Part shown: positions 2,009 to 53,790 of the stretch, piece by piece
How the letters are laid out: every line of letters begins with the position of its first letter
Position numbering within the stretch: position 1 is the stretch's first letter
From: Arbacia lixula
Lineage: Eukaryota > Echinodermata > Echinoidea > Arbacioida > Arbaciidae
NCBI GenBank assembly: GCA_963669155.1
Contig: OZ022586.1
Span: forward strand, 1,313,938-1,377,937
Direction: 5' to 3'
Length of the DNA: 64,000 nucleotides
The notes under the pieces: generated by a model
The model's database searches: none
Seen by the model: only the letters and a program-made list of their open reading frames with translations
What the model was told of the DNA's origin: nothing
Translations under genes and position numbers: made by a program

Positions 2009-2036
<28 letters not shown>
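2009..2036. repeat. (CA)n microsatellite
   Basis: A pure CA run preceded by a short TC run. It explains the His/Thr-rich and Cys/Val-rich open frames on the two strands. Confidence 0.9.
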
Positions 2037-2038
<2 letters not shown>

Positions 2039-29000: not shown

Positions 29001-32000
29001 GGAACATACACATTTAGGATATGGGAGAAGCTAGGGGTGTGGCCTCTGCCTGGTAGCTTGACCAAGAGACAAAGAGACAGTTCTTGGAAGCTGTATAGAT
29101 GGAGATACATGGTCATTTAAGTGGTTTAGCTGGTTTGGGTAAAAGGATGTTTAGAAGATTTATGATGTGGTCTGAGCAGGAAGGACGAAATATGGAGGAG
29201 TAATCTAAACAGTAAAAGGGGGCAAGGGTAATGACTACTACACCACAGATGGTGGGAGCGGGGTTATGACAAATTACTTCTATACACACCTACGTCCTTC
29301 TGCATGGAAAGATACATTCAAGCCTGTCTATAAAGACCACACAAATGCCTCTGTAGACAGATATGGTCTGTATAGACCAGTGTGATTGCATGTGATTATC
29401 AAAATTATATTGCAGATTTGTAGAATCGCACATGTTCATGACTGTCTTTAAGATATTGGACTTTAAGAAAAGGATTTCTTGTTGTTCTGAAGCTCCATGG
29501 ATTGATACAGAAAACCCAGACATATATGCAAATAGAACCAAAGGGCTCTGATAGCATGGATTTTGATTATTGTCTTACATGTCAAGTATATGACCTTACT
29601 GAAAGACTGGAAGCAAGCAAACACTTGCAGAACTGATAATTATGATGATAATTATCGTAACTTTAATCTGCCTTGAAAATGTTATCAGACTGCAAGAACT
29701 TTTTAGGGTATCAGTTTTGCTCTTGTTGGAAATGTTGTCCATAAAATAAACATGAGTATGTACAACAAATGTGAATTATTATGATCATTATTTCAAATAT
29801 CTGTTTAATTTCTGTTCCAATCAAGTAATATCTAAAGTCATCAAAAAGAATGTGTACAATGAAACTACCTACAGTGCCTACAGAACCACAAATAGGTACA
29901 ATGAAAAATAAAAGCTCTCTTGCACAGTGTTGATTTTGTTATTATCATTCTGCATTCCTCTCATGACAATTTTGTTGTCCTTAACAGATCGCAAGAACTT
30001 GGGACCCAGATGTGGCTGTCTTCATGATCGGTAAGGGCATCAGTGTGAACCAGGCCGATACGTACGGCCGAACCCCGCTCCACGTGGCGGCTGCCGTCGA
30101 TTTCCCCGAGATGATCAAGGTGCTGCTTGACAATGGAGGTATGACCTTTGACTTCTTCCAGACACTTTCAAAGAACTTTTTTTTTATTGTTAGCCTTATT
30201 TTAATGATTACATGATAATTAAAAAACTAGACCTATATGCTACACTTGTGGTTCATGAAATGCCTTACAAAATCTCATTGATATCTTTTCAGGTTCTACC
30301 ATAACCTGATTACATGATTTACATGTATGCTTATCAGGAAAAATGGTGTGCTTGCCAACATCTTTTAAGTACTTGCGTGTAATTGATAAACTAGTGCTGA
30401 TACCCTAAGACAGTATCAATATAGATCAATGGTTGAGAGACCACCTCACATTTGATATCATAAAATTGAAATTTGAAGAGATCATAACTTTCTTTTCCTT
30501 TGACGGATTTTCATCAAACCTTCACTAATATGTTTCTTTCATGTTTCTGTTTTTATCATATCAAAGTTAACTTTTGGATGGACTGTCCCTTTAATATATG
30601 TTCTCACTTTCCCTGTTTGTCAGCTGACATTGAGAGCCTAACGGAGAAAGAGCTTCAGACTCCGCTGCACTACGCCGCCCGTAATGATGCATGTTGCGCC
30701 CTCCAGGTCCTGATAAAGAAAGGTGCCAAACTGCACCCCCGGGATTACAAGGGGCGCACCCCGTTGCTCGTTGCTGCTGAACTGGGTGAGTTGTCTGGTA
30801 CTGACATGTACACCCCAGCTGAAAGGAATTGGCATAGGGAAAGGGGATTAAAGGGAAGAAAGAGAAGGAGCCGCAGTTTTAAACCGTGGTATATTTTGTC
30901 TAGTTCAGCATGAAACATGATGCATTAGCCTAAAAATCATCATGTTTCACGCTGAACTGGACAAAATAAACTGCGGTTTAAAACTGCAGCTCATTCCCTT
31001 TCTCCCCTCTCCCATTCCCTTTCCCTTTCCCTATGCCAATTCCTTTGAGCTGTAGTGTACTGACCATGGCCTTGTTGCATAAAACTTACGATTAATGGTA
31101 ACTCTGCCACCAATGGTAACTATAGTAACATCACTTGGCAGCCAATCAAATTCAAGGTTTCCATAGTACATGTAGCTGCCATTGAGAGCAAAGTTACCAT
31201 CAATGGTAAGTTTTATGCAACAGAGCCCATATCAATATTTTCATGTTTATATTCAATAATTGTTACAATCTAAATGGCCAGTGAGTATGACAGCTAGTTG
31301 TTGCCATGGTAATTGATTACCATATCATGATTAGCTTCGTAATAATATGCCATTACATGTAAGTCATTACTGCACCAATTACACACACAAATTCCATTGT
31401 ACAAAACTTTGCATGACGCTAAAAGAGCTATCATATAGTTTATATTCAACATGAAAAATTGGAAAACATATACAATAGACTTTTTTTCAATCATCAAGTC
31501 CATTGTTGAATTCTGTTTCTATGTTCATATTGATATTTCTCCTGGATCTTTGCACTGAATCTTTCAAGCTCATCATATACACACTTATGGAATATTTTTT
31601 TTCCAGTTGTGTTTGCAAATTGATACAACATTTTAACACTCTGGGCCATATTGCATATAGTTCTGTATGGTAACAAGTTATATGTATTGCAACTGTACAA
31701 TATTGAAGTGCTCAGAGCTCATCGGCTGTCTCTGTGGTATACAATCAATTTTGATTTGACCGTTTGACCGTTGGTTTGCTTACCTAGATCGGAGTGAGAC
31801 GGCCAGTTTGCTGTTGGAGATGGGAGCGAGGGCGTCTGATGTTGACCGTACTGGCCATACAGCCCTGCAGGTCATGGTCACCAAGATGCCCGCAGTGGTA
31901 CGTAGCACCCACGGTGTATAGCTTTAACTCGTTTCAATTCAATTCAAATGGTAGGTAGCAACCACAGTGTTGAGCTTTAACTCATTGGGGACCATGCAGT

Positions 32001-35000
32001 CATCCACTACTTGATACCTTATAGGCTATATAACTTCTCATATCCATTACTTCAATTCAATTCAATTCAAATGGTAGGTAGCACCCACAGTGTATAGCTT
32101 TAACTCATTGGGGACCGTGCAGTCATCCATTACTTAATACCTTTGAGGCTATATAACTTTTCATATCAATTACGTCAATTCAATTCAAATGGAAGGTAGC
32201 ACCCACAGTGTAGCTGTGACCCATTGGGGACCGTGCAGTGACCACTTCTTTGTACCTTTGACTTTGAGACTATGTAACTTTTCATATCAATTAGTTCAAT
32301 TCAATTCAATTCAAATGGTAGGTAGCACCCACAGTGTATAGCTTTAACTCATTGGGAACCATGCAGTCATCTACTACTTGATACCTTTGAGGCTATATAA
32401 CTTTTCATATCAATTAGTTGAATTCAATACAATTCAACTCAATTCAGATGGTAGGTCGCACCCACAGTGTAGCTGTGACCCATTGGGGACCACGCAGTGA
32501 CCACTACTTTGTACCTTTGAGACTATATAACTTTTCATATCCATTAGTTCAATTCAATTTAATTCAATACAATACAATCTAAATGAGTTTTATTTTTAAA
32601 AAATGGCGAAAAAAACAAGCTCTGTGCATTTTGAATGATCGTATACTATCCCAGAATATGGTGCGCCATAAAACCGGAAGTATATGTCCCAAAAGCAATC
32701 GAGTAGATATTGGTATGGCAATGTGATATTGCTTCATATTGGCTTTATGCGATAGGGAGAATGACCCATGACATGAATCTAATCTGTTCACCTGATCAGG
32801 CTAAAGATGGGCTGAACCAGCTGTATCGCTGTGATCGAGCCAACCGCAAGCAGTACTACGACCTCCACCTCCTGGAACCCCTTCCCCTAGACTCCGCCAT
32901 CGACGTCCCTGCAAGGACAGTGGTAAGTTTGGTGCTAGGTCAGGCAGGCTGTGTGTAGGTGCTGTGATCTTATGGTAGAGCCTGACAAGATATCAATGAG
33001 ACTTTGTAAGCCATTTCATGAACCACAAGTAAAGCATATAGGTCTAGTTTTTGAAATATCATAGTACCAGAGAACTTTTGAGTCCTTTTATCTTTACTAT
33101 GGAGATCCACTTTAGAACAAACAATCATTCTTATGACCATGATGTTCCTTTTCCACATTTGTCTGTCATTTTAATTGTATTAGTATGTGCAACTTTTAAT
33201 GTTTATATATGAATATTTGTCTTGTTTGTATAGGACACTGCCCTGCGGAAATTCAGTGCTATATCAATGAAGGGGATACTCTGTTTAAAAACTGATATAG
33301 AATAAATACAAAATAGAATATATCATGATGAGATCATAATGTACATTGATGATGAAAGGAATTTATTCATTGATTATTTAATTAATAAATGAATATATGA
33401 ATAAATGTATGAATGAATACATTTCAATTCAATTTCATCCTTTAGTCATTTATCAAACAAAATAAAGAACTTTTCATAAACATTGAATACAAGGTATCAC
33501 AAGAAAGCTAATGATTTGTGAGATGTGATGACCTTTAACATGCGTTTCAATACACATCAAGCAGTAAGATGAATCAAAGTACACATATCAAATAAAAATA
33601 TGTACTTTCAAAAATACATACATAAATGAATAAATACATCTTTTTCTTACAGCTGCAAAGCATTGTTCACTACAACCAGCTTGAGCTGATTATGCATCCT
33701 GTCTGCAGGCAGCTCGTTGAGGTCAAGTGGGAGAAATTTGGCAGGTAGGAATATTTCTTCTTCCTCTCTCTCTCTCTCTTTCTGTCTCGTCCTCTCTCTC
33801 CTCTCCTCTCTTCCTCCTTCACTTTCTGTCTCTTCCTCTCTCGCCCCCTCTCCTTCTCTCTTCCTCTTTCCTCCTCTCCTTCTCTCTTCCTTCCTCTCTT
33901 TCTGTCTCTTCCTCTCTCTCCTCTCCTCTATTTCTCCCTCACTTTCTCTCTTTTGGTCTCTTCCTCTCTCTCCTCTCTTCCTCCCCCACTTTCTCTCGTT
34001 CTGTCTCTTCTTCTCTCTCCTCTCCTTCTCTCTTCCTTGTTCTGTCTTTTCTTATCTCTCCCTCATTCCTCTCTTCCTCTCTCTTTTTCTGTATCTTCCT
34101 CTCTCCTTTTCTCCTATCTTCCTCTCTCTCTCTCTTTCAGGTCAACTGATGTAAAACACAACAAAAGAAAAAGGTCTGATGCTTCAGCATGCATAAATGA
34201 TATGATTAATACTAAATAGTTATGTTATACCTCGTAATTATATGAGATATAATAAAGGACAATGTACAAAAAGTATGAATACCGGTCCTCTTTTAAAAGA
34301 ACTCTTTAATCACATCATAACAAACATTAACAATATTTTGCATATACCTGCCAAATATAAACAGTTGTATTTCATTGAAATTATAGTACATGGGATCATC
34401 AAAGAGGACATTTGTTTTTACAATTTCAGAAAAACTTTCATCCTGTGAGTGGGTAAAAAAAATGTAGCATGTATTGTTATGTAGGCAGTTCATCTACCTT
34501 TAAATCTTCACCTTTCCCCCGTCCTCTATTTGATTTATACCAATCTTTGTTTTGCCTCTCCTGCTCAAACCACATCATTAAAGTCTTCTAAACATCCTCT
34601 CATACTCAACTTGAAATTTACAAGTCTGATGCTCGTTATTCGTGTACCTCTCGACGCTGCAATAATATTACAAACACACACCGATCCCAAACACTACAGT
34701 ATATCAAGATATTTGTTGGTGTGTTCTCTTGTTATGGATAGGATGGGTGCTCTGAAGCAGCTAGCTTTCAACCTTCTCTTCATCATGATGTGGACCGTCC
34801 TGGCCTGTAGCTTAGAGAATCCGTTTGAGTACAAGTTTCCTCAAGATATCTGGAGACTTACCCTGGAGGCAAGTATTGTATCAAAGAGTAAGGAAAAAAC
34901 ACAGTGGCACGTATTTTGAACAGAGGTTTAATGCAAACAGTGTACTAAACCTGGATTAACTTGATGGGATGCCAAATAAAACAAATTGAAACATTATTAT

Positions 35001-37524
35001 TGATTTTGTCTTTGGAATCACTATACTATATTGAGTTTGTCCACATGTATAGTAATTACACCGAATAATTGAAGTTGACCACTGTTGTGCTTCTGTGATG
35101 AATATCAATGATTTGGGGATAGCATCAGAAAATTTATTTGGCGTCCCATAAAGTTAGTCCAGGTTTAGTACACTGTGTTAAACCTCTGTTCAGAATACGG
35201 GCCAATGAGAATAAGTTGTCTTCAAAAGAGGCAGATCAGTGAATATTCGAGCAAAATCAGACAAGTAGTCAAGAAGTGATGATCATTTAAAGTCTGAGCA
35301 CTTCTTGACTTGACAACACATGTGTGATGTCATAGGTGAGGTAATGATGTATTGCAGCCAATCAAAAAGTGCTTCTAATCCTCCCTAATTTGAATAGTTG
35401 TTTAAAAAAATTAAAGTGAATGATATTCTTAATGCTAAATAGGTTACTCATTGCGGATAATTCGCTAGTGATAATGGTTTGTCTCACAATGTATGATCAA
35501 CGGAATCTAAAAGATCATGACGTTTCGTGCGCCACTGCAACACTTCATCATACAAAATTGATACATAAAGGATAGAGAGCTGGGCTCAGCCACAGCATCA
35601 CAGCATCTTATTTCGTTCTTGCCCAAGTTTACTCAGACATTTGCCAATCTATTTCTTGTATTTTTCTGCTTTAACGCTTGAACTCAGCGTGATCTTTTTC
35701 CTTGTCAATTTAATTTTTGGGCAGACCATATGCAGGGTACTTACTGTCCATATAGCAGTAGGGAGTTTTCGCAAACAGGAATCATCTAACTGTGACGGTG
35801 CCCACACTATATAACGAAAGTTGTCTATTGGCTATTGCCCAGTGGAGAATGTCTGGGCTAGTGACTACCGTTGTGAGACTTGAAAACTAACCCTTCCGTT
35901 TCTCTCTTACTCCTACAGATCTGTGGCGTACTCCTGACTTTGTACCAGATCATCTTGGAGCTGAGAGAGTTTGTAGATTCAAAGAAAATATTCATTGTAA
36001 GTACTTGTCCACTGGGTATGTCTTGAAGAAGAAGAGTTTCTTGAAAAGAAGCCCTACGTAGGACTCGGAATTTGAAGGTATTTTTTTTCCAGTCAGTGTG
36101 GGAATTTGATGGAAATTTCTCAAATCAGGGAAAAGTCAGAGCTAGAATTTTGATTGGCCCAAAAATCAAAAGTAGTCAGTCAGACTCTGTTATATTTCGT
36201 TGCATGTAAAAACAACATCCATTATTATATAATGCAGATTGTTCACTGCAACAACATAGAAAACATGTGAAACTGGAAATTAGTTGAAATAATCATGCAA
36301 TTTTGAGACTTTATCAGGGAAAAATCAGGGAATATTGTTTTCTTGAAATGCTGGGAACCCTGAAAAAATATACAAAATTTGCTTTTTTTGGTCACATGAA
36401 GGTACAATGTAGTGCACCAACTTTTTTCTCAGCTTTGGCTCAGCTAATAAGAAAAATACCGCAGATCACCTCATCTTACTTGATCACTTCCATTTCATGT
36501 ACGTAGGCGTGGAGGAATTGGCGTATCACAGAGATCGAGCGAGACTTCAAGTTCTGCCATCCCCAGTGGCCTCAGGAGCGCCAGTACCTGGACCAGGAGG
36601 TGGCCGAGATCAGGGAGCAAACACCCACCTACTTTGCAGACAAATGGTAAGTGTGCCTCCACCCTTGCCCCCGCCCCTACCCCCGCCCCCACCCTTGCCC
36701 CCCCCCCACCCCCGCCCCTACCCCTGCCCCAAACCGTTCCTGAAAAAGAGCAGAGTATCGATAGAGAGTAGAGGCGCGTACGAGCTTTGCGAAAGGTCCG
36801 TTGACCTGTACACATCGCTCATTCGCGTTACATGCTCGCCGAACTGGTAACATAACTGATCGTCCTTTACAAAGGTTCGGTCGGGCTATGCTACAACACT
36901 TACACATACTTGCAAACACAATTCATTGTGTGTACATGCGCAGTAGCATAGCAAAGATTGCCTCTGATATGGTACAAGCGCAAGATCGCGACTGGCTAAG
37001 TTTTACCTATCTTGAGGGTGGGGCTGGTATGACCACCGCCAAACGCAGTGCCCTCTATAAACGCTATCGCGCCATTTAGAGTTCAGGTGTCTGGGCCTTT
37101 AACCCTAATACTCCCGGGGTATTTCAAAGCTTGTTATTACCGGGGGGCCATTATTGCCCCCCCCCCTGAGATCTCGGCCATGGGTCGCCCGATTGCCTCA
37201 AAATTTTGCACAAGGGTAAAGAATTATGTAATCTACAAAGTTGTATAGCTAAATTTACGAAAGTCCTTTTATTTTTTTTTTAATAATTTATGCTAATTTA
37301 TGCGAGAAATCATAGATTTTTGTATTTCTCACTCAATAAAGCCTCAGGAATAGCAATTTTTGGTACAAATGTCTTTCATAACTCCCTCATCAATTCTTGA
37401 AAGAAAAAGACAGGTTGTGGTAATTATTTCTTATGTATTTTATTGTTTTTCAATTTTCTTATGTATTTCTTTGTTTTTCGTTGTGATTCAGATGTGATGC
37501 GTGGGTGTGAGTGTGTGTGTGTGG

Positions 37525-37557
<33 letters not shown>

Positions 37558-40500: not shown

Positions 40501-43500
40501 ACTACACATCCCATTGGGTTTGTAATGTAATTACTACACATCCTATTGGGTTGTAATGATTAACATATTTGTGTAAACTGGTGCTTTCTCCCTGTGTAGG
40601 AACCTGTTTGACTGGCTGATCTACATCTCACTACTTGTTGTGACCCTCTTGCACGTAGTGGATACCTTTGTAATGTAATAACTCCACATCCCATTGGGTC
40701 GTAATGATTAACATATTTGTGTAAACTGATGCTTTCTCCCTGTGTAGGAACCTGTTTGACTGGCTGATCTACATCTCATTACTTGTTGTGACCCTCTTGC
40801 ACGTAGTGGACATTTTTGTGGATGCCAGATCCCTTAGCACGGCCACTCAGAACATCTTCTCTATCGTCATCATCTTCGTCTGGGTCCGACTAATGAAGAG
40901 CGTCAGAGCATTCACGAGATTTGGTATGAAAATTGTCTAATTTTAGCATCAAGAGTACTAATACAGTCAGTATAAAAGTCATAAAAGGGCTGTTTAGGAG
41001 GGGCAACATCTGAGTGTGAAAGTCTAAATTAGATTGAGTATTCACAAGCTAAAAATGGGAATAAAGTTTGGTACTAGAAACTTGTTTCACAAGGTATTAT
41101 CTAATGAAATTTGTCTGATTTAGTATCAAGAGTAATTAAAAGAATTAATATACAAGTCTGTATTAGATTTAGAATTAACAAGCTAAGATTGGGTTTGAAG
41201 TTTGGTACTATAAACTTGTTTTACTAAGGATTATCTAATGAAAAATTGTTTATCAAACTAAATTTTGTACCCCTTGTGAAAACAATTGTTGATTCGAAGT
41301 CCAAAACAACATCTTGTTCAGGTAAACGTTTGCACCAGCTCTTCAGCTGAAAGTGTTTTTAAAACGTTTCAAATAATAGGCAGTTTGAGTAAGATTAGTT
41401 TAGATGATTATAAAATTCATGTAAACAAAATGAAATTTTCCCTTATGTGGTGAATGAGGAAGTAAAATCAATTTTGAGTTAAACAATCTCCTAGTCAAAA
41501 TGTTAAAAAATCTAAAGAGAATCCAGAACAGAACGATATTTGATGATTTATAGAATATTTTTAGATATAAGTTCTCATGTTTTATGCATATCTTACTTCT
41601 ATATTTAAAGAGAATCCAGAAAAGAATGATATTTGATGATTTATACAATTGTTTTCAAACGTTATTTCACATTTTTTATGCATATCTTATGTCTTCCCTC
41701 TATGTTCTTGAATTGTTTTTATCTCTCTCCTTGCTCCTCTCCACAGGACCCTTCATCATAATGCTGGGGCTTATTGCACAAGACTTTGGGACATTCCTCT
41801 ATCTCTATGGGAACTTCTATGTGCCATACGGTAAGCTGCTCAGATCAAGACCCTTTCCAGTCGTCCCAATTCTCACAAGGCTCCCTTCCAGTCAGGGAAT
41901 TTGATGAAAATGCCTCAAATCAGGGATTTTATGATCATGAGGAATCTTGTGAAATAAGTACTCCTGAGGTGAAGTGGAGGGTGTGCAGTACTACTAGTAT
42001 TTCCCAGAGACCTCCATTTCATCGAGGGGACCAGTAGATTCCACAAAGATCCTGATAAAGATCATAAAATATCTGTTTATATCCTTCATTGATATATTCT
42101 TTGTTAATCAATTGGATCCTTAACATGGACCTTGTTGTAGTGTCCATGCTCTAAGCTCTAGACGTCAGGTATAAATATGAAGGACACCGATTCATTTGTC
42201 TTTGATTTCCTGTGGCTTGAGCATACCAACCAAAATTGAAGTTGCACCTTGGCCGCACCACCATGGGAGTTCCCCGATCACGCCCAATGATTTTCCACTA
42301 AAACGCAAAATAGCAGTTGGAATGAAATTTGTCGCATAGATTTTGCGTGTTGCGCATACACTGAAAAGGTCAAGGCGTGGAATGGAAAACATGGTATGGA
42401 ACAAAAATGCACGATAAACGATGGAATGGAGCAAATATCTGATAAGTGACCTATTATCCTGCAAAGGATCTACTTAGGTGTTTTATAATAGTTTTAAATC
42501 CTGAAATATAGCAAAACTAGACTTGACATCATGCCTGCAGTAGGCAAAGTTTATAAGCAATCTTTGCTCTGTGCTTGCAGCTTGTGCCTTCTGGATGACA
42601 TACGGAGGTAACAACGGGACAATCCCAAGCATGGCCACCGTGGACCAGATGATGTACAGTCTCTTCCGCATCACCCTGGTCGATGAGTACGACTACGATG
42701 TAAGTCTATGAGGAGAAATCCTCACTAAAAGAGAACTTGTTCCACAAGGCCTTTCGGCTGTACTTTAGTTCTCTTTTTTAATTTTCAACACATATTTGTA
42801 AATAATTGATTGTCATTTTGTGTTGTTAAAGTTGATACTCGTGTATTTCTATCGAAAGTGAAATGAATAAATGAATGAATGAATGAACTCATCACAGTAA
42901 AGCTAGGCCATTTTAAAGGAGGTGTAATACTTTTCCATGCCGTAAGTATAACATTCTGTAGCTACTACACCATGTAAAAGAAAATATCCTTCCTTTAAAA
43001 TGAAGGTACTGAACAGTGATGTGGGTAAATTCTGACCTTCACAGTTCTCATAGAGTTTTGGCGGGGTCATCCAGAAATATAAGCACCTGCAGAAAGTTAC
43101 ACTGACAACATTATTTTGAACTTCACAATCATTTCTGAGCAGCTTTGTGATAAAACATGATGACAAACTTATTTTTTTTTCCATGCTGTATTTGAATCCT
43201 ATGTCACTGTTCAGATTCACAAAAGGAACATTGTTGTTGTAATTTTAGGTTGTGCAATATTTCACATAGTTTGATTTGTATCTTTCTGTAGATGTCTGCA
43301 CAAGAGTCTACCTTTAAGATAATAATCATTATTTAGCATTGTATACATAAAAAAATCTCTTCATTCGCTGCTGAAACAGCTTCGGTGGTTTTGACAACTG
43401 TTGATACAATGGGGAAGAGGTGCGGTGCAAAATACTTTCTTAAACATTTTCAGTAAGCTTTAATAGTTTATGTTTATGTAAGTATGACAAGTTTTTCCCC

Positions 43501-46500
43501 CCTTGTTCTTTTTTTCTGTCAGGGCATGCGACAAGAAAACGTTTGGATGACATATTTCTTACTGGTCTCATTCCTGATGATCTCTGCTATCCTCTGCATC
43601 AACCTCCTGATTGCCATGCTCTCGAATACGTTTCAGAGGTAAGAGTGCGAAAGTGCCTCAATTTTCCACATTTCTTGAAACACCGTGTTGCTTACAAAAA
43701 GTAATTTTGTAAGGGTGTGTTCACTTGAGAAATATGCTCAGTCAAGAACTATTCATTAAGACAATTACAACTGGAATGTGAGGGATTGCCATGTTCTCTA
43801 GAAGGTATCAGAGGTAGGAGTGTGAACATACCTCATTGAGAGCAGTAATAATAATGATTATTTCATATAACACATTTCTTGAAACACAGTGTTGCTTTCA
43901 AAAGGTTAGGGTGTGTTCACTTGAGGAATATGTTCAATATGCAACATCTATTGCAACCATTTTTGCAAAATAGTACTAGACGAGTGAAACACCTATCCAA
44001 TCGATTGCATACAAACTACTAATGAACCGTTTCAATCTCACAGAGTCTATGACAACGCCACAGCCTTTGCCACCATGTAGGCAAAATAGTATTAGATGAG
44101 TTATTTGGACTCTGCCATGTCCATTATCGATCTTCCTCTTGCTTGAAGGTATTCATGATCTTGAAACCATTGAGGGCACATTCCAGAAGTCGATCTCCCC
44201 TATCATTCCTGGAGCCTATTGCAAAGTTCCCTATCATCCTCTCACTGTTATCATTCTGTTGACCTAACTTTAGCATTAAAGTCTCCCACGACAATTGTAC
44301 AATTTGCCTTGTCTTCATGAAGTAATTTGTCAATCTTTTTGTACAACATGTCAACTTCTCCGTCAGTATGGCTTGATGTTAGGAGGTATACTTAAGGGTT
44401 TGCCACTTCAAGATCGTTACGATAATCTGAGCCACTCTGTCTGAAGATAAATGGAAAATACATGGATCCATTTAGTATGCAAACTACTAATTAACCTTTT
44501 CAACCCCACAGAGTCTCTGACAATGCCACAGCCATTGCCTTAATGCAACAAAAGAAGAACAAGCACTGCACCTTCAGCTGTGTGTTTTATGTAAAGCGCT
44601 CAAAGTGGAATAAAGTATTACGTACAACATGACAAGAAGCGTTGTACGCCATCTACGTTTTCTTTAAAGCAGGCGTCCATCGATAGCATGAATTAGGTAT
44701 AAGTCCGTTGCGCGATCCAACATTCAAATGAGTCATCTCCTTTTAGAATATTAACAGGTAGTGGTATATGAAATGATACGTGATACGGACGTCTCATAGT
44801 AGTCAACTTACTAGGCTACAAGGATTATATCTATTCCCTTATGCAATTCAAAACTAAGTCTGGAAACATATCAGCCCGTATTTTTTCTCTCTTTTCTCAA
44901 AAGAAAAAGGAATGATGCTTTGTCATTGTATCCAGACATAGTTGTGATTTGCAGGAGGGCGTGTTATAATATGTGCATTTATAACGAAATAACATTTCCA
45001 TCCCACATAGTCTATGACAATGCCACAGCCATTGCCTTAATGCGACAGAAGAAGAACAATGGATTCATTTAGTATGCAAACTATTAATTAACCTTTTCAA
45101 CCCCACAGAGTCTATGACAATGCCACAGCCATTGCCTTAATGCAACAGGAGAACAATGGATTCATTTAGTATTATAACTACTAATTAACCTTTTCAACCC
45201 CACAGAGTCTATGACAATGCCACAGCCATTGCCTTAATGCAACAGACTAAGATTATCCTGGGCATTGAGGAAGGGCTTGGTAAGAGGAAGAAGAACAAGT
45301 ACCGCAACTTCATCCGGGGGTTCTGCAGCCCTCAGGCCCTGTACTATGACGACGACATGACCTCTGATGGGGGTGATGACCTCAAGAAGATGACATTCCA
45401 GATCAGGGTATGGAAAAATGACTTTTGTACTTAGCAAGTTTTTGATTTTTGGTATCCTCTTTGACCCCAACAAAATGTCTTTAACTAGTCCACATGGTAA
45501 AAATTCATCATAGCGCTATACACCATATAAAGAAATGCTGTATAAAGAAACATGGGTCTGGGCATTGTTTCGAACTAGAACGGTAAAAAGAATCATGTTT
45601 AAACACAGTGCGCGATGATTGTGGAAATGACTAGCGATATGTTTTATAACTGGGCAGGGCTTAGCGTGGCCGCGCACGAAAATGCCCCAATCAACTCAAA
45701 GGAAAGCGCGCTCACCGAAGACAGACAGGACCCTTTTCGCTATACAATGATTCTTTATTTTATTTTGGTATAGATATTTTTGCATGTGGACACCCTTTTC
45801 GCTATACAATGTTTAATCGAGTTTCGGTATAGATATTTTCGTGTGTAAAAATCCTGTTCGCTCTACCTTGATTCTTTTACGACGTATAGCTATAGAAAAA
45901 CGTTGTAGCTATACAATGGATTACTTGTATGTGAACACAGGGTTTCTTTCCTCTGTTTAGGATGCCTTGACTGAGCTGGATGAGTTTGTGCGAGAAGAGC
46001 AGCACAAAGCCCACTCTGACAACATCGGTGACCTCAAGAGAGAGGTCAATGACCTTAAACAGGCACACGAGAAGCAGCTCAAGAAGGTCACCGGCGAGCT
46101 GAAGGTCGTTCAAGAACTGCTCAAGGCTGTGTTGGATCAGAAGGCTGGTTGGAATGCAGGAGGAGGAGGAGGAGGAGGAGGAGGGGAAGGAGGTGTGATA
46201 GGTGAGTAGAGTGGATGGATGGATGGATAGATGGATAAATGGATGGATAGATAGATTGATACATGGATGAATGATTGAATGGATAGGAATATTAATATAC
46301 AGATAGATAGATAGATAGATGAGTAGATATACAGAAGAATAGATGGATAGATAAGGGTTGTAATAATATGTGGATGGGTGGATAGATAGATTAATGGATG
46401 GTCATTTGTATAAAGGAATGGATAGAAAGATAAATAGCTTGATAAATAGTTAGATATTAGGAAAGATATGTACATGAATAGATAGATAGAAAGATGGGTG

Positions 46501-49500
46501 GATAGATGGATTAATGGATGGACAGTTGTGTAAATGAATTGCTGTTATGTCAAAGCCCTTAGTGACAGCAGTTTTTTAACTGAAGAGGCCACCCTGCTTA
46601 AATAAAACTAGAAATAAATAAATAAATAAAATCAAGGAATAGATGAAGACATGTCCCATATACATTGGAAGGAATGTGACCTACAGGATAAGTCATGCAT
46701 GTGTCCCCACCCCCTCCCCTTTCCCCTCCCTTTCCCCCTCCCCCTCCCATTATCCAGGCTTCTCAGGAACCCTCCCGGCCTACTCCACCCTTCCCCCAGG
46801 CACGCTGCCCTCCGGGTGGACCGTACCTCCGGGGGAACTCCCTGAGAAGGAGCGGCCCAATCTTGCCGCCACGGGCACCCCTCGCTTCATCGGCCGCCGG
46901 GATTCCACCACCCAGCACACCACCGGCCCCACACAACCGCTGCTTGGAGTAGATGCTACAGACAGTCTCAATCTGACCAGACAGAGGTATGACTTACACG
47001 CACCCATGGGGGGGTATCCAAAAAACATCTTCATTATATCTCAGTGACTTGGGGAACATTTTCTCTTTTGGTATTCCGTAAAGCCAACTTTGGCAAAAAG
47101 ATTAGAAATGTATTCAAATGAGCTAGAGATAAAATTTTTATGCAAACGAGCATCAGAGATAAATTTTTTACACAAATGAGCTAAATAGGTAGTCTGAAAT
47201 GCACGTAGGAAGAAAAATGCACATACCCTTTTGCAGTATTCTTATAGATGATATATTTTTGTTGTTTATTGGGTAATAATAAATAAAAAATAAAGTGAAT
47301 TGAAAGGGATCACAAGCCCTTATCAACTATTTGTTATTGAGTTACCTCAATATTCAAATATTCAAATTAAAATATCACATTTATGTTGATATTTTGTGAA
47401 ATATGAAGGTGTGAAATTACAATGTCATGACAGTGAGGTATTCCAAGAAGGATTTCTTGATTGATATCATTTTGTTTACCTGTATTTATTTGCTTTTGCA
47501 TTTAGCACTCGAAGTCCACCATACCTGACGTCACCCACTCCGGAACCACCAGCAGATGATGGAGAAAGGTAGAGTGCTGTGATTGGCTGATGGGGCCGTA
47601 TATAGAGAAGAATTTCAGAAAAATACTGTAGGAGCTTGATATTTTTGTGAGGGTTGTATTTTCGTGAATTTTCTGGTTCGCTGTAGGGTCCCATATTTAA
47701 CAACATAAAATATTGCCATGTAATCCTGATGACTATTAAAGTGCATGCACATCACGCTGCTGCGCGCGTACAGAAGAAGCCCTGTAGATGTCATGATGGG
47801 GTACGGGGTGTCATATGTACTGTGAGCGGTGCATGTGATCACATCCTAACTAGCATAGCATTGCAGCGCACAATTGAGCGTCGTGATAACATGTGCAAAT
47901 ACGGTTTGTTTTCTCCCATTTGTGCGTGTGTACATTTGATACCAGAACAGTGTGTGCATATTTTCATGTTCTTTTCTATCTTGCTCTCCAGATTGAAGGC
48001 ATATAAGAAGGAGAGCAAGAAACAGGGATATTTGACTCACTTATGGCATGAAGAAGGAAAAGGAAGGAAAGAAAAAGTGGAGATTTTTATGTTTTTTACT
48101 ATCTTACTCTCCAAATTGAAGGCATACAAGAAGGAAAGTAAGAAACAGGGATATTAGACTCACTTATAGCATGAAGACGGGAAAGGAAGGAAAGAAAAAA
48201 AGAGATTATCATGTTCCTTTTGATCGTGCTCTCCAGATTGAAGGCATACAAGAAGGAAAGTAAGAAACAGGGATATTAGACTCACTTATAGCATGAAGAA
48301 GGGAAAGGAAGGAAAGAAAAAAAGAGATTATCATGTTCCTTTCAATTTATTTCAATTTTTCAATTTATTTTTCAATTTATAAATTTTTCAATTTATTTCA
48401 ATTTATTTTCATACTTCTCGATGAATACAATGTGCTCTCCAGATTGAAGGCATACAAGTAGGAAAGTAAGAAACAGGGATATTAGACTCATTTATACCAT
48501 GAAGAAGGGAAAGGAAGGAAAGAAAAAAGGAGATTATCATCTTCTTTTCTGATCTTACTCTCCAGATTGAAGGCATATAAGAAGGAGAGTAAGAAACAGG
48601 GATATTAGACTCACTTATAGCATGAAGAAGGGAAAGGAAGGAAAGAAAAAAAGAGATTATCATGTTCCTTTTGATCGTGCTCTCCAGATTGAAGGCATAC
48701 AGGTAGGAAAGTAAGAAACAGGGATATTAGACTCATTTATAGCATGAAGAAGGGAAAGGAAGGAAAGAAAAAAAGGAGATTATCATCTTCTTTTCTGATC
48801 TTACTCTCCAGATTGAAGGCATATAAGAAGGAGAGTAAGAAACAGGGATATTAGACTCACTTATGGTATGAAGAAAGGAAAGGAAGGAAAGAAAAAAAGG
48901 AGGTTATCATTTTTATTTCTGATCTTGCTCTCCATATTAAAGGCATACAAGAAGGAAAGCAAGAAACAGGGATATTTGACTCACTTATGGCATGAAGAAG
49001 GGAAAGGAAGGAAAGAAAAAAGGAGATTATCATCTTCTTTTCTGATCTTACTCTCCAGATTGAAGGCATATAAGAAGGAGAGTAAGAAACAGGGATATTT
49101 TACTCACTTATGGCATGGAGAAGGGAAAGGAAGGAAAGAAATAAGGAGATTATCATGTTTATTTCTGATCTTACTCTCCAGATTGAAGGCATACAAGAAA
49201 GAGAGTAAGAAACAGGGATATTTGACTCACTTATGGCATAAAGAAAGGAAAGGAAGAAAGAAAAAAAGGAGATTATCATGTTTCATTCCAATCTTTCTCT
49301 CCAGATTGAAGGCTTACAAGAAGGAGAGTAAGAAACAGGGATATTTGACTCACTTATGGCATGAAGAAGGGAAAGGAAGGAAAGAAAAAAGGAGATTATC
49401 ATGTTTTTTTCTATCTTGCTCTCCAGATTGAAGGCATATAAGAAGGAGAGTAAGAAACAGGGATATTTTACTCACTTATGGCATGGGGAAGGGAAAGGAA

Positions 49501-51615
49501 GGAAAGAAATAAGGAGATTATCATGTTTATTTCTGATCTTACTCTCCAGATTGAAGGCATACAAGAAAGAGAGTAAGAAACAGGGATATTTGACTCACTT
49601 ATGGCATGAAGAAAGGAAAGGAAGTAAGAAAAAAAAGAGATTATCATGTTTCATTCCAATCTTTCTCTCCAGATTGAAGGCTTACAAGAAGGAGAGTAAG
49701 AAACAGGGATATTTGACTCACTTATGGCATGAAGAAGGGAAAGGAAGGAAAGAAAAAAAAGGAGGTTATCATGTTTATTTCTGATCTTGCTCTCCAGATT
49801 GAAGGCTTACAAGAAGGAGAGTAAGAAACAGGGATATTTGACTCACTTGTGGCATGAAGAAAGGAAAGGAAGAAAAGAAAAAAAAGGAGATTATCATGTT
49901 TCATTCCAATCTTTCTCTCCAGATTGAAGGCTTACAAGAAGGAGAGTAAGAAACAGGGATATTTGACTCACTTATGGCATGAAGAAGGGAAAGGAAGGAA
50001 AGAAAAAAGGAGATTATCATGTTTTTTTCTATCTTGCTCTCCAGATTGAAGGCTTACAAGAAGGAGAGTAAGAAACAGGGATATTTGACTCACTTATGGC
50101 ATGAAGAAGGGAAAGGAAGGAAAGAAAAAAAAGGAGGTTATCATGTTTATTTCTGATCTTGCTCTCCAGATTGAAGGCATACAAGAAGGAAAGCAAGAAA
50201 CAGGGATATTTGACTCACTTGTGGCATGAAGAAGGGAAAGGAAGGAAAGAAAAAAGGAGATTATCATGTTTTTTTCTATCTTGCTCTCCAGATTGAAGGC
50301 TTACAAGAAGGAGAGTAAGAAACAGGGATATTTGACTCACTTATGGCATGAAGAAGGGAAAGGAAGGAAAGAAAAAAGGAGATTATCATGTTTTTTTCTA
50401 TCTTGCTCTCCAGATTGAAGGCTTACAAGAAGGAGAGTAAGAAACAGGGATATTTGACTCACTTATGGCATGAAGAAGGGAAAGGAAGGAAAGAAAAAAA
50501 AGGAGGTTATCATGTTTATTTCTGATCTTGCTCTCCAGATTGAAGGCATACAAGAAGGAAAGCAAGAAACAGGGATATTTGACTCACTTGTGGCATGAAG
50601 AAGGGAAAGGAAGGAAAGAAAAAAGGAGATTATCATGTTTTTTTCTATCTTGCTCTCCAGATTGAAGGCTTACAAGAAGGAGAGTAAGAAACAGGGATAT
50701 TTGACTCACTTATGGCATGAAGAAGGGAAAGGAAGGAAAGAAAAAAGGAGATTATCATGTTTTTTTCTATCTTGCTCTCCAGATTGAAGGCTTACAAGAA
50801 GGAGAGTAAGAAACAGGGATATTTGACTCACTTATGGCATGAAGAAGGGAAAGGAAGGAAAGAAAAAAGGAGATTATCATGTTTTTTTCTATCTTGCTCT
50901 CCAGATTGAAGGCTTACAAGAAGGAGAGTAAGAAACAGGGATATTTGACTCACTTATGGCATGAAGAAGGGAAAGGAAGGAAAGAAAAAAAGGAGATTAT
51001 CATGTTTATTTCTGATCTTTCTCTCCAGATTGAAGGCATACAAGAAGGAGAGTAAGAAACAGGGATATTTGACTCACTTATGGCATGAAGAAGGGAAAGG
51101 AAGGAAAGAAAAAAGGAGGTTATCATGTTCTTTTCTATCTTTCTCTCCAGATTGAAGGCATACAAGAAGGAAAGCAAGAAACAGGGATATTTGACTCACT
51201 TATGGCATGAAGAAAGGAAAGGAAGGAAAGAAAAAAAGGAGGTTATCATGTTCTTTTCTATCTTACTCTTTAGATTGAAGGCATACAAGAAGGAAAGCAA
51301 GAAACATGGATATTTGACTCACTTATGGCATGAAGAAGGGAAAAGAAGGATAGCAAAAAGGAGATTTTCATGTTCTTTTCTATCTTTCTCTCCAGATTGA
51401 AGGCATATAAGAAGGAGAGTAAGAAACAGCGCAAGCTGAGGCAGCAGAGGGAGGAATACCTCCAGAACCAGCTCCGCCAGACCCCCAGCGACCCAGGTCA
51501 CAGGTCACAGGAAGGTCAGAGGTCAGCTGAGGTCAGGCAGGAAGATAGGGATGAGGAGGCCCCAGGGGTGACCCTAGCTGACCTCGTCAGGATACAGTCT
51601 GTCACGGTGAGCTGA
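22779..51615 (+). CDS. ankyrin-repeat TRP-type cation channel (20 exons)
   Basis: Predicted plasma-membrane cation channel of 984 aa. Twenty exons join with matching phases to 2,955 nt. Order: basic N-terminus with KKKKRKGK (residues 15-22); ankyrin repeats at about 145-315 (TPLHVAAAV, TPLHYAAR, TPLLVAAEL); S1 about 391-410; S2 about 423-447; S3 about 507-527; S4 about 536-556; S5 about 563-588; pore helix and loop with a sequon (NGT) and LFRITLVDEYDYD; S6 about 636-661 ending NLLIAMLSNTFQRV; coiled coil about 738-795; Gly9; Pro/Ser/Thr-rich tail. Ankyrin repeats plus a TRP-like S5-S6 place it in the ankyrin-bearing TRP group. The pore does not match canonical TRPV, TRPA1 or TRPC filters as I know them, so the subfamily is left open. 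TRP channels act as tetramers in sensory signalling; the stimulus here is unknown. Several introns carry amplified splice-site copies. Confidence 0.93.
23146..23514. mobile_element. fold-back element in TRP intron 1
   Basis: TTGGCCCAATATCACAAAG at the left pairs with CTTTGTGAGTGAATTGAGGC at the right. The centre is a near-perfect hairpin (GGTTTAGACCAAGGTTT and its inverse, 23294-23346). About 370 bp. Confidence 0.7.
24078..24092 (+). CDS. TRP gene exon 2, predicted 15-nt microexon
   Basis: Acceptor CTTTCCTTTAAACAG, 15 nt, donor AATG|GTACGT. Phase 1 in and out, encoding AVQEN. Exons 1 and 3 also join in frame without it, so it would be a cassette microexon. Predicted from splice signals only. 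Confidence 0.5.
24990..25226. mobile_element. MITE family 1, copy B
   Basis: AGCTCAAAGGAATTGG and its exact inverse CCAATTCCTTTGAGCT near the ends, with arms paired almost throughout (AGGGAAGGAGCC, TTTGTCCAGTTCAGCATGAA). It folds into one hairpin of about 115 bp per arm. Confidence 0.88.
26105..26560. repeat. degenerate tandem repeat, about 125 bp unit
   Basis: About four copies of a unit with GATAACTCAAGAATG, TTGACCAAA and TTGGTACAATGATGACATAT words. Copies start near 26116, 26230, 26372 and 26493. Confidence 0.65.
28218..28441 (+). CDS. TRP gene exon 3
   Basis: Acceptor TTCCCTTTTCTAG, donor GAG|GTTGGT. Encodes the pre-ankyrin region and the first ankyrin repeat (LSRGANVNSTDKYGQTALHE). Ends phase 0. 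Confidence 0.92.
28527..28751. mobile_element. MITE in TRP intron 3
   Basis: TACTGTATACGCCATATATT and its inverse bound a 225-bp fold-back with further paired AATTTTGCGAA-type arms. A short direct repeat (CAGTATGTGGAAACACACA) lies at 28492-28510 and again at the right edge, 28747-28765. Confidence 0.8.
29988..30138 (+). CDS. TRP gene exon 4
   Basis: Acceptor GTCCTTAACAG, donor GGAG|GTATGA. Encodes ankyrin repeats (ISVNQADTYGRTPLHVAAAV, IKVLLDNG). Phase 1 end. Confidence 0.93.
30478..30543. mobile_element. fragment of fold-back family 11
   Basis: AACTTTCTTTTCCTTTGACG and CACTAATATGTTTCTTTCAT match the right arm of the element at 58614-58981. It lies in TRP intron 4. Confidence 0.6.
30624..30785 (+). 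CDS. TRP gene exon 5
   Basis: Acceptor CTGTTTGTCAG, donor CTGG|GTGAGT. Encodes ankyrin repeats (LQTPLHYAARNDACC, YKGRTPLLVAAEL). Phase 1 in and out. Confidence 0.93.
30808..31060. mobile_element. MITE family 1, copy C
   Basis: GTACAC ends with GAAAGGAATTGGCATAGGG and its inverse. The whole 253 bp forms a long hairpin. It begins 22 bp after the exon 5 donor and ends 7 bp before a family 2 MITE. Imperfect flank match TGACAT / TGACCAT may be a target duplication. Confidence 0.88.
31068..31228. mobile_element. MITE family 2, copy B
   Basis: Ends GTTGCATAAAACTTAC and inverse TAAGTTTTATGCAAC, with internal GCAGCCAATCAAATTCAAGG shared with copy A. In TRP intron 5. Confidence 0.85.
31788..31897 (+). 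CDS. TRP gene exon 6
   Basis: Acceptor GCTTACCTAG, donor CAGTG|GTACGT. Encodes the last ankyrin repeat (SLLLEMGARASDVDRTGHTA). Its donor junction is the start of a tandem repeat. Confidence 0.92.
31893..32580 (+). repeat. tandem repeat seeded on the exon 6 donor
   Basis: Six occurrences of a ATGGTAGGTAGCACCCACAG-type word at about 31896, 31949, 32070, 32189, 32314 and 32447. The first is the real exon 6 donor with its flank (GTGGTACGTAGCACCCACGG). The unit is about 120-130 bp with TTCAATTCAATTCAA and ATATAACTTTTCATATC words. Four of five downstream copies keep a GT at the donor position. Confidence 0.88.
32665..32760. mobile_element. MITE family 4, single arm
   Basis: CCGGAAGTATATGTCCCAAA through TATGCGATAGGGAGAAT matches the right arm of copies A and B. 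The other end is missing. It ends only 40 bp before exon 7. Confidence 0.7.
32800..32922 (+). CDS. TRP gene exon 7
   Basis: Acceptor TTCACCTGATCAG, donor CAGTG|GTAAGT, phase 0 both sides. Encodes the linker after the ankyrin repeats (LNQLYRCDRANRKQYYDLHL). Confidence 0.9.
33653..33744 (+). CDS. TRP gene exon 8
   Basis: Acceptor TTTTTCTTACAG, donor GGCAG|GTAGGA, phase 2 end. Encodes the segment before S1 (IMHPVCRQLVEVKWEKFGR). Confidence 0.9.
33763..34139 (+). repeat. polypyrimidine (TC)n-rich tract
   Basis: About 375 bp of T/C-only sequence with tandem TTCTGTCTCTTCCTCTCTC words, immediately after the exon 8 donor. It ends TCTCTCTTTCAG, which looks like a splice acceptor but no exon follows in frame. 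Ser/Leu-rich open frames across it are artefacts. Confidence 0.85.
34742..34868 (+). CDS. TRP gene exon 9 (S1, start of S2)
   Basis: Acceptor TTGTTATGGATAG. Encodes S1 (LAFNLLFIMMWTVLAC). The only in-phase boundary at the 3' end is GAG|GCAAGT, a GC donor, because the next exon resumes at phase 0 with ICGVLLTLYQ. Confidence 0.9.
34906..35204. mobile_element. fold-back element family 3, copy B
   Basis: GAACAGAGGTTTAA with AGTGTACTAAACCTGG at the left and the inverse at the right. 299 bp, matching the arms of 9603-10192 without its extra insert. In TRP intron 9. Confidence 0.8.
35437..35575 (-). mobile_element. dispersed repeat with hammerhead-like core, copy 1
   Basis: Shares GTTACTCATTGCGGATAATT and GACGTTTCGTGCGC with 62239-62385. 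On the minus strand 35519-35551 reads TGATGAAG ... GCACGAAACGTC, resembling the CUGAUGA and GAAAC halves of a hammerhead ribozyme. Homology as a repeat is clear. The ribozyme reading is tentative. Confidence 0.5.
35919..35996 (+). CDS. TRP gene exon 10 (S2)
   Basis: Acceptor TTACTCCTACAG, donor CATT|GTAAGT. 26 codons, phase 0. Encodes ICGVLLTLYQIILELREF, the core of S2. Confidence 0.92.
36507..36646 (+). CDS. TRP gene exon 11 (S2-S3 linker)
   Basis: Acceptor CATGTACGTAG, donor AAATG|GTAAGT, phase 2 end. Encodes the intracellular linker (EIERDFKFCHPQWPQERQYL) that runs into S3 with the split Trp codon. Confidence 0.9.
36658..36735. repeat. C-rich tract after exon 11
   Basis: CCCGCCCCTACCCC-type runs 12 bp after the donor. 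The minus strand is G-rich with repeated G3+ runs. It accounts for Pro-rich and Gly-rich open frames. Confidence 0.75.
37101..37886. mobile_element. fold-back element in TRP intron 11
   Basis: AACCCTAATACTCCCGGG and its exact inverse bound 786 bp. Next to each end are GGGGGGCCAT(T/A)ATGCCCC tracts. The interior is AT-rich with a GT microsatellite (about 37507-37557). No transposase. Confidence 0.72.
37990..40558 (+). repeat. 32-bp minisatellite, about 80 copies
   Basis: About 2.57 kb of a 32-bp unit with core TTTGTAATGTAATTACTACA and CATCCCATTGGG. The core includes the palindrome GTAATTAC. Sequence variants (a 31-bp unit with GGGTTGTAATG, CATTAGGTTTGTTATG) recur together at multiples of the unit, showing higher-order structure. 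It lies in TRP intron 11, abutting the decoy copy of exon 12. Confidence 0.95.
40548..40662 (+). pseudogene. partial decoy copy of TRP exon 12
   Basis: Nearly identical to 40697-40810: 52 bp of intron, acceptor CTCCCTGTGTAG ending at 40599, then 63 bp of exon 12. Only a few substitutions, one of them synonymous. Exon similarity then runs into minisatellite sequence. If spliced, the frame reads HVVDTFVM and stops at TAA, truncating the channel after S3. No donor follows. Confidence 0.9.
40748..40923 (+). CDS. TRP gene exon 12 (S3-S4)
   Basis: Acceptor CTCCCTGTGTAG, donor TTTG|GTATGA. Encodes S3 (WLIYISLLVVTLLHVVDIFV) and S4 (IFSIVIIFVWVRLMKSVRAF). S4 has only two basic residues near its end, as in TRP channels and unlike voltage-gated channels. 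Confidence 0.94.
40928..41250 (+). repeat. tandem duplication at the start of TRP intron 12
   Basis: About 180-bp unit starting 5 bp after the exon 12 donor (GAAAATTGTCTAATTTTAGCA) and repeated from about 41107. Shared CAAGCTAAAAATGGG and TTTGGTACTA words. A further 90-bp duplication with GAGAATCCAGAA lies at about 41514-41695. Confidence 0.7.
41747..41830 (+). CDS. TRP gene exon 13 (S5)
   Basis: Acceptor CTCCTCTCCACAG, donor TACG|GTAAGC, phase 1 in and out. Encodes most of S5 (FIIMLGLIAQDFGTFLYLYG). Confidence 0.93.
42581..42699 (+). CDS. TRP gene exon 14 (pore)
   Basis: Acceptor TCTGTGCTTGCAG, donor CGAT|GTAAGT. Encodes the end of S5, a pore loop with an N-glycosylation sequon (NGT) and the pore helix and filter region MMYSLFRITLVDEYDYD, rich in acidic residues. 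Confidence 0.94.
43523..43638 (+). CDS. TRP gene exon 15 (S6)
   Basis: Acceptor TTTTTCTGTCAG, donor CAGAG|GTAAGA, phase 2 end. Encodes S6, finishing INLLIAMLSNTFQ, the typical TRP S6 end. Confidence 0.94.
43785..43930 (+). repeat. duplicate of the exon 15 donor end and adjacent intron
   Basis: ATTGCCATGTTCTCTAGAAG then TATCAGAGGTAGGAGTG mirrors the last about 33 nt of exon 15 plus its donor (ATTGCCATGCTCTCGAATAC, TTTCAGAGGTAAGAGTG). Similarity continues through CACATTTCTTGAAACAC and GGTGTGTTCACTTGAG of the intron. Confidence 0.82.
43960..45205 (+). repeat. four decoy copies of the exon 16 acceptor
   Basis: Copies of intron end plus exon start (CCCACAGAGTCTATGACAAT) have acceptor AG at about 44042-44043, 44510-44511, 45009-45010 and 45107-45108, before the real one at 45204-45205. 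The last two are close to a 97-bp unit. Copies carry 36-45 nt of exon 16 and then diverge to ATGGATTCATTTAG, giving an in-frame stop. Copy 2 is followed by AATAAA near 44610. Confidence 0.9.
45206..45407 (+). CDS. TRP gene exon 16
   Basis: Acceptor TTTCAACCCCACAG, donor CAGG|GTATGG. Encodes the post-S6 helix (VYDNATAIALMQQTKIILGI), a basic patch (KRKKNKYR) and an acidic stretch. It is the last of five tandem acceptor copies, and the only one that continues in open frame to a donor. Confidence 0.92.
45725..45860. repeat. short tandem repeat in TRP intron 16
   Basis: Two to three copies of a about 65-bp unit with CCCTTTTCGCTATACAATG and GGTATAGATATTTT words. Confidence 0.6.
45961..46201 (+). 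CDS. TRP gene exon 17 (coiled coil, poly-Gly)
   Basis: Acceptor TTTCCTCTGTTTAG, donor ATAG|GTGAGT, phase 1 end. Encodes a heptad-rich helix (residues about 738-795, DLKREVNDLKQAHEKQLKKV), probably a tetramer coiled coil, then nine Gly from a GGA repeat (46158-46184). Confidence 0.92.
46205..46510. repeat. GGAT/GATA tetranucleotide microsatellite
   Basis: Interrupted GATG, GGAT and GATA units begin 3 bp after the exon 17 donor and run about 300 bp. The Ile/Tyr/Ser-rich minus-strand frame across it is an artefact. Confidence 0.85.
46758..46986 (+). CDS. TRP gene exon 18 (Pro/Gly/Thr-rich tail)
   Basis: Acceptor CCCTCCCATTATCCAG preceded by a strong C/T tract, donor CAGAG|GTATGA. Encodes a low-complexity cytosolic tail (FSGTLPAYSTLPPGTLPSGW). 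Two other frames are open here, but only this one matches phase 1 in and phase 2 out. Confidence 0.88.
47506..47568 (+). CDS. TRP gene exon 19
   Basis: Acceptor CTTTTGCATTTAG, donor GAAAG|GTAGAG, phase 2 both sides. Encodes STRSPPYLTSPTPEPPADDG, a Pro-rich segment. Confidence 0.82.
47980..51395 (+). repeat. 27-copy array of the exon 20 acceptor and exon start
   Basis: A unit of about 122 bp, made of polypyrimidine tract, AG and the first 34 nt of exon 20 (ATTGAAGGCATACAAGAAGG, AGAGTAAGAAACAG) followed by GGATATTTGACTCACTTATG and a purine-rich stretch. Copies begin near 47995, 48115, 48235 and onward to 51276; the real exon is copy 28 at 51396. CAATTTATTT repeats (about 48342-48410) interrupt the array. 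Nearly every copy keeps TCTCCAG. Repeated Lys-rich frames (KAYKKESKKQGYLTHLWHEE) are translations of this unit. Confidence 0.95.
51396..51615 (+). CDS. TRP gene exon 20 (terminal coding exon)
   Basis: Acceptor TATCTTTCTCTCCAG, stop TGA at 51613-51615. Encodes a basic helix (KKESKKQRKLRQQREEYLQN) and an acidic end with LADLVRIQS. It departs from the array after AAACAG, where the array has GGATAT and this exon has CGCAAGCTG. CACG|GTGAGC at 51606 could be a donor, but no matching exon is visible downstream. Confidence 0.87.
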
Positions 51616-52279: not shown

Positions 52280-52690
52280 GGAGCATCCCAGCACTGAGCA
52301 GAGGTGTGTCGTGACGAGCCCTTGGCATGGGACTTCATTAAGCTTCTTGGAGCTGAGCGTATACAGTGAAGACTGGTAGGCAGCTGAAAGCACTGAGCAG
52401 AGATGTGTCCTGACGGCCTTGGCATGGGACTTCATTAAGCTTCTTGGAGCTGAGCGTATACAGTGAAGACTGGTAGGCAGCTGAAAGCACTGAGCAGAGG
52501 TGTGTCCTGACAAGCCTTGGCATGGGACTTCATTAAGCTTCTTGGAGCTGAGTGTATACAGTCAAGACTGGTAGGCAGCTGAAAGCACTGAGCAGAGGTG
52601 TGTCCTGACAAGCCTTGGCATGGGACTTCATGAGGCTTCTTGGAGCTGAGCGAATACAGTGAAGCCTGGTTGCAGGTGAAAGCACTGTGT
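52280..52690. repeat. 98-bp tandem repeat, about four copies
   Basis: Words GCACTGAGCAGAGGTGTGTC, TTGGCATGGGACTTCATTAA and GACTGGTAGG recur at 52371, 52468, 52566 and (diverged) 52664. Open frames on the minus strand reflect the repeat. Confidence 0.9.
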
Positions 52691-53189: not shown

Positions 53190-53790
53190 TATTTAACTGC
53201 AATACATATTCATTAGAGCTGACTTCATTTGACTACAATTATTAGATACATATTCATTAGAGCTGACTTCATTTGACTACAATTATTAGATACATATTCA
53301 TATGAGCTGACTGCATTTGACCACAATCGATTGCGGTCAGTGGTTACAATCAGTATGGACAAATTCATTGGAGCTGACTGCATCTGACCGCAATTACTAG
53401 ATACATATTCTTTAGAGCTGACTGCATTTGACTGCAATTACTAGATACATATTCATTAGAATGACTTCATTTGACTGCAATCATTGCGGTCAGTAATTGC
53501 AGTCACTGTGTATAAATTCATCGGAGCTGACTGCATTTGACCGTAATCGATTGCAGTCAATGATGGCAAACGCTGCGTACATATTCATTGGAACTGACCG
53601 CATTTAACTGCAATCACTGTGTACAAATTCATTTGAGCTGACTGCATTTTCTTGGAGTGCAATCGATTACGGTCAGTGATTGCAAACACTGTACAAATCA
53701 ATTTAGGCTGACTGAAATTACTGTGTACATATACTCATTAGAGCTGAATGCATTTAACTGAAATTGATTGCACTCTGTGAAGGTGATCTC
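53190..53790. repeat. degenerate tandem repeat after copy B
   Basis: Many imperfect copies of GAGCTGACTGCATTTGACCG and TACATATTCATTAGA words, spaced roughly 55-120 bp. Confidence 0.8.

Follow-up and report, generated by a model that had tools for sequence, protein, structure and literature searches.

A gene in which the same exon edge occurs more than once raises a question about where duplications arise and what becomes of them. Are the additional splice junctions peculiar to that gene, are they a property of splice junctions more widely, or have ordinary repeats come to lie on exon edges by chance? And are the extra sites of any use? The question is posed by a locus in a window of 64,000 nucleotides, the whole stretch of DNA from the sea urchin Arbacia lixula that was analyzed. 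All features of this locus are on the + strand and are given by their positions in the window.

The Gene and Its Identity

The gene extends from 22779 to 52297 on the + strand. Its 20 exons form an in-phase chain with a predicted product of 989 amino acids and a putative start codon. A Pfam scan of this product detects ankyrin repeats and an Ion_trans domain. When the product is compared with the PDB by phmmer, ankyrin-repeat proteins are the top matches; among channels only, a TRPA1 chain (7ykr) aligns with residues 344-677. Because that match takes in the channel part of the product, TRPA1-like is the best available name for the predicted gene.

Several other features can be seen in and around this gene. 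An apparent GC donor (G/GCAAGT) is found at exon 8 (34868-34876). Simple-sequence runs (46158-46353, 36655-36730 and 33756-34135) start no more than about 12 nt downstream of the donors of exons 7, 10 and 16, and exon 16 has a GGA run inside the exon as well. An array with a unit of about 44 bp lies directly downstream of the gene (53202-53649). Elsewhere in the window, two long tandem arrays of 84-bp units (7913-9156 and 16387-18282) resemble C2H2 zinc-finger coding repeats, as judged by unit sequence.

Duplicated Junctions in the TRPA1-like Gene

The duplication families, the lengths of their exon parts and their copies were all taken from a self-alignment of the gene. Four splice junctions have copies that contain both intron and exon sequence; three of them are acceptors (exons 11, 15 and 19) and one is a donor (exon 14). 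The extra copies at exons 11, 14, 15 and 19 number 1, 1, 4 and 27, with exon sequence of 72, 30, 47 and 34 nt. A fifth edge, the donor of exon 5, is repeated with hardly any exon sequence. The initial annotation had listed the same five edges under a different numbering (its exons 6, 12, 15, 16 and 20 are exons 5, 11, 14, 15 and 19 here), and self-alignment agrees with it that extra junction copies occur at all five and that those at four of the five include exon sequence. Its copy numbers, in which the real junction is counted, are also reproduced (2, 2, 5, 6 and 28 for exons 11, 14, 15, 5 and 19). The exon part had been put at 30-60 nt; the upper end of this range is too low (72 nt at exon 11).

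The five edges differ in how their copies are arranged. The exon-11 acceptor (real site 40748) has a single copy at 40600, in a duplication (40519-40819) with a unit of 148 bp. The intronic start of this unit is a 32-bp sequence that is also the unit of a minisatellite with 80 copies (37997-40558), which makes up most of the length of intron 10. A search to the left of that minisatellite for a decayed, older copy of the exon-11 junction gave weak scores, reached by 20 of 300 and 7 of 300 shuffles, and such a copy is not claimed. At exon 14 (43609-43936; real donor 43638) the one copy, with its donor at 43813, is diverged (79% identical). The exon-15 acceptor family (44009-45252; real site 45206) consists of two dispersed copies, at 44044 and 44512, and two that are in tandem with the real site, at 45009 and 45109; the copy at 45009 has lost its AG. 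In the exon-19 array (47954-51429), 27 copies precede the real acceptor at 51396, and each unit of about 122 bp includes the 34 nt of exon.

The exon-5 donor array (31897-32576) is best described as intronic. Its homology begins only 2 nt inside the exon, and the donor at 31897 is followed by five downstream copies at a spacing of 53-133 bp, four of which have a donor-like GT. Over the five donors and acceptors, the AG or GT is retained in 34 of the 38 copies (25 of 27 at exon 19, 3 of 4 at exon 15, the single copies at exons 11 and 14, and 4 of 5 at exon 5). One further array touches an exon without involving a splice junction: 4.1 copies of a 98-bp unit (52290-52687) begin within the final 8 coding nt of exon 20, at the stop codon, and continue into the 3' flank.

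Preference for Junctions Within and Beyond the Gene

Within the TRPA1-like gene, four of ten local-duplication families span a splice junction, while 1.0-1.5 would be expected (P 0.014-0.048). The range covers four versions of a placement null from which exon-internal placements were excluded, and the test is post hoc, since the gene was picked for its looks. The array at the stop codon could be counted as spanning, which gives 5 of 11; the four families were used instead. The gene is also rich in arrays. Those with a period of at least 25 take up 27% of its length, compared to 5.1% in a sample of 18 10-kb stretches at arbitrary positions.

Other genes of the same genome were surveyed as a control. 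The exons came from two gene families only: 30 of 69 profile matches for Ion_trans, mostly those with few or no stops, and 25 of 126 for kinesin, picked for several exons within a short span. They are found in 27 loci, 63.9 kb in all, chosen without regard to repeats. A matrix derived from 19 donors and 19 acceptors served to predict exon edges, and the 55 exon matches gave 109 predicted junctions (one junction in locus L040 has no candidate site). A junction was scored as duplicated if a local duplication reaches 8 nt or more into both its intron and its exon side. In L036 and L043 the edge was moved manually, from a copy inside the array to the foremost of several equal donors, and the duplications are spanning under either choice. 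Two loci, L050 and L051 (the latter with N stretches), were chosen for visible repeats and were kept out of every rate.

In this sample 10 of 109 junctions (8 of 97 plus 2 of 12) are duplicated, a count outside which stand L040, where exon edges are unclear, and L044, with 4 nt of intron. The corresponding figure for the TRPA1-like gene is 4 of 38. Because these proportions are so similar (Fisher p 0.76), the gene is not exceptional beside the sampled channel and kinesin loci. The preference for junctions, on the other hand, is evident in the control loci. Half of their local-duplication families (12 of 24) span a predicted junction, compared to 4.7 expected (P 0.002); without L040 the values are 11 of 23 and 4.6 (P 0.0025). 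A variant Monte Carlo in which two L056 families were merged and L057 and L058 were absent gave 10 of 20 compared to 4.0 (P 0.0028) and has been superseded. The subsets of high identity matter here, since an old duplication at a junction stays recognizable for longer when its exon half evolves slowly. Among the families at or above 85% identity, 6 of 11 are spanning (2.4 expected, P 0.0135), and among those at or above 90%, 5 of 8 (1.8 expected, P 0.0115). Local duplications prefer junctions, two- to three-fold. The initial annotation had held that exon edges are favored beyond chance in one gene; the preference is supported, and the idea that the gene is special is not. It had also asked how common such repeats are across the genome, and in the small two-family sample used in place of the whole genome exon-edge repeats are above chance.

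The control cases vary in quality. Some are clear by eye, for example L043 with four donor copies and L056 with five. Others are weak (the first donor of L036, 78%; L052; L053, 72%; and one L056 acceptor, 74%). Outside the rates, one intron of the kinesin locus L050 is flanked by three copies of its donor and seven of its acceptor (1-511 and 573-1315 of the locus), and the acceptor copies include codons that we take to be those of the P-loop. A myosin profile with 73 matches provided one possible case, in which the matches at C1:8454105 and 8454880 overlap in the profile. In L047 a 150-bp array (1956-3248) stops 14 nt short of an ion-channel exon.

Origin of the Arrays

The arrays are probably minisatellites of the type known as mirages, in which stretches straddling an exon edge are recurrently duplicated in tandem, expanded by unequal exchange, and tolerated. 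A short stretch across the edge would first be duplicated in tandem, and the array would then grow by unequal exchange. Among duplications that touch an exon, those spanning a junction may be the one class able to pass without effect on the mRNA, since the copy beside the exon body (the last acceptor or the first donor) would remain usable, presumably through exon definition. Duplications internal to an exon would be purged. Junctions would also be somewhat more prone to duplication, through a local cause.

A dedicated duplication process at junctions could be imagined, e.g., a hotspot for fork stalling and template switching at the step in base composition between intron and exon. Such a process would be compatible with mirage-type minisatellites, since it would be the cause of their junction-proneness, and it is a possibility of which we are doubtful. 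The two- to three-fold excess is found with exon-internal placements excluded, and six of the 24 control families, arrays that lack exon sequence, begin or end 6-29 nt from a predicted exon, both of which are in keeping with a process that acts near the edge. However, the excess is modest, and the base composition of the polypyrimidine tract could equally be its cause.

It is improbable that these are ordinary minisatellites whose position at exon edges is accidental, without any bias toward junctions. The TRPA1-like gene is indeed rich in arrays (the 27% compared to 5.1% given above), and a junction duplication, with its slowly evolving exon half, is easier to recognize than others. Chance placement is nevertheless at odds with the control families, both in the full set (12 of 24 spanning compared to 4.7) and in the subset with 90% identity and above (5 of 8 compared to 1.8).

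Splice Sites in the Extra Copies

The predicted effects of using the extra splice sites are consistent with copies that are tolerated. All 32 acceptor decoys (27 at exon 19, 4 at exon 15 and 1 at exon 11) would, if used, bring in a stop codon within the extension or just beyond it, and three of the 32 are already without an AG. The decoy donor of exon 14 would give an immediate stop. A role of the decoys as alternative coding exons was considered and was rejected for the acceptors, on the grounds that all 32 give an early stop and that the exon-19 filler between the junction parts has no codon periodicity. By these predictions no alternative protein would come from the decoys, and the gene can work normally only if splicing passes them over.

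The strength of the sites was scored with a matrix made from the gene's own sites, the real exon-19 acceptor included. That acceptor scores 12.0; one decoy in its array is equal to it and 26 of the 27 are lower. At exon 11 the decoy, and at exon 15 two of the four decoys, score equal to their real sites, so that site strength alone cannot explain the choice of acceptor at these two exons. In the exon-19 array the splice-site columns are no better kept than the filler, with a diversity of 0.089 in the last 14 nt of the intron and 0.084 in the filler. The decoys look tolerated, not kept.

The initial annotation had suggested that decoys are kept because they tune splicing, e.g., by slowing the choice of acceptor or by yielding transcripts destined for degradation. 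This has very little to recommend it. The AG or GT is kept in most copies (34 of 38), and early stops on decoy use have the shape of a poison-splicing switch, which is what tuning might look like. The same count shows that sites do decay, however, and the duplication rate is similar in the control genes. The exon-19 splice-site columns show no better conservation than filler, and 26 of 27 exon-19 decoys are below the real site, though the exon-11 decoy and two at exon 15 tie with theirs. The arrays can scarcely be an assembly artefact: tandem arrays are difficult to assemble, but the units differ from one another (11 distinct exon parts among the 27 exon-19 decoys) and similar structures recur on several contigs.

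Sequence Evolution of the Exon-19 Array

The exon-19 array has enough units for their variation to be compared site by site. Over all 28 units, mean pairwise diversity in the 34 exon nt reaches 0.159 at third codon positions, similar to the 0.140 of the intron part, and falls to 0.013 at first and 0.006 at second positions. Position 3 accounts for 90% of the exon diversity. The permutation p for this bias is 0.0009 with the 28 units, 0.001 with the 27 decoys alone, and 0.002 on 11 distinct haplotypes. Of the nine exon sites that vary, seven lie at codon position 3 (p 0.004) and six are synonymous, compared to 14% of all possible single changes and 36% of transitions. A strong transition bias would weaken the codon signal, which depends on nine variable sites in one array. 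The position-3 bias is absent elsewhere: the exon-15 and kinesin L050 copies, compared by eye, have several amino-acid-changing singletons.

Because neutral decay of free decoys is not expected to give a position-3 bias, exchange or reseeding is the more natural reading, and the exon-19 copies behave as if derived from, or exchanging with, the working junction. Within the mirage-type explanation, the units would exchange with the working copy or be seeded from it, and it would be mainly protein-compatible variants that reach high copy number. A simple conveyor model misfits, because the copy farthest from the real acceptor is nearly identical to it and the nearest copy is not the most similar.

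The source of the filler was sought by alignment. Compared with the intron flank on the left and with the first part of intron 18, it gave scores that 103 of 200 and 106 of 200 shuffles reached; for the body of exon 19 the figure was 9 of 200. All 28 units have a GTAAG or GCAAG that starts at nucleotide 24 of the exon part. By virtue of this motif an exon-19 unit might, in principle, serve as a micro-exon.

Comparison with Known Systems

Duplicated splice signals have been linked to the gain of introns. In the RdRp gene of potato, according to the available part of the report, an intron was gained by a tandem duplication across an intron-exon boundary, by way of a cryptic GTAAG (PMC4974935). 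The duplicated segment there, as in the sea urchin gene, consists of the 3' end of an intron and the 5' part of an exon (PMC4974935, as far as its available text describes the segment). The GTAAG or GCAAG of the exon-19 units recalls the potato motif (PMC4974935, same portion), a likeness of sequence only. The Rogers model of intron gain and a model developed for globin introns regard splice signals that have been duplicated as a source of introns, as summarized in the accessible portion of PMC3087553. Such signals are duplicated at the echinoid junctions too; the likeness to these models, as they are outlined there, is one of parts only.

There is a bolder reading, to which we would give rather less than an even chance. 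Splice junctions in this echinoid may be duplication hot spots, with about one in ten bearing extra copies that ongoing exchange keeps in step with the working exon, and its genome may hold a large stock of half-built introns and exons for intron gain. If about one junction in ten does bear copies, as in the small sample, a single genome would provide many natural tests of how the spliceosome chooses among near-identical sites, and of how introns originate. There is also a warning for annotation, in that fragments of exons found in the introns of this genome need not be alternative exons.

The closest known structures are the mirages of amphioxus. As described in the available sections of two reports, these are arrays that span an intron-exon edge and in which many copies have intact splice signals (PMC3087553, PMC3902484). 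They have been found in Adh3, troponin C, the globins BflGb6 and BflGb9, and PGBD5 (PMC3087553, PMC3902484, same sections). The Adh3 data and RT-PCR suggest that mirages do not disturb regular splicing, and normal mRNA splicing and length polymorphism between alleles or cells are listed among their traits (PMC3087553, in its available text). The structural features by which that text defines a mirage recur in the TRPA1-like gene. Copies span the exon-intron boundary at four junctions; both 5' and 3' exon boundaries are involved (three acceptors and one donor); and many copies, not all, have the AG or GT (34 of 38). The host is an echinoid and not a cephalochordate, but the taxon, as given in the same text, is where mirages were described and is outside their structural definition. 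The 15,740-bp mitochondrial contig of the assembly agrees with an echinoid host: COI reads best with the echinoderm code, which yields the expected conserved residues (the general invertebrate code leaves it open as well), and tRNA and protein genes follow the gene order of sea urchins. Amphioxus, considered as a source since mirages occur there, was rejected on this evidence. By the structural definition the four junction-spanning arrays of the TRPA1-like gene, known here from genomic sequence, are mirages.

A literature search found no report of junction-spanning arrays in sea urchins, as far as titles and the openings of abstracts show and with most subscription journals outside its coverage. 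The structure is of a known kind, and the search suggests that echinoids are a new group for it. If about one in ten sea urchin junctions carries copies, junction duplication would count among the common mutations of two or more deuterostome lines. Mirages are reported from a handful of amphioxus genes (PMC3087553, PMC3902484, in the sections available). In contrast to those, the arrays described here occur in an echinoid host, four such junctions are found in one gene, one array has 28 junction copies, and the two-family sample puts the echinoid rate near one junction in ten.
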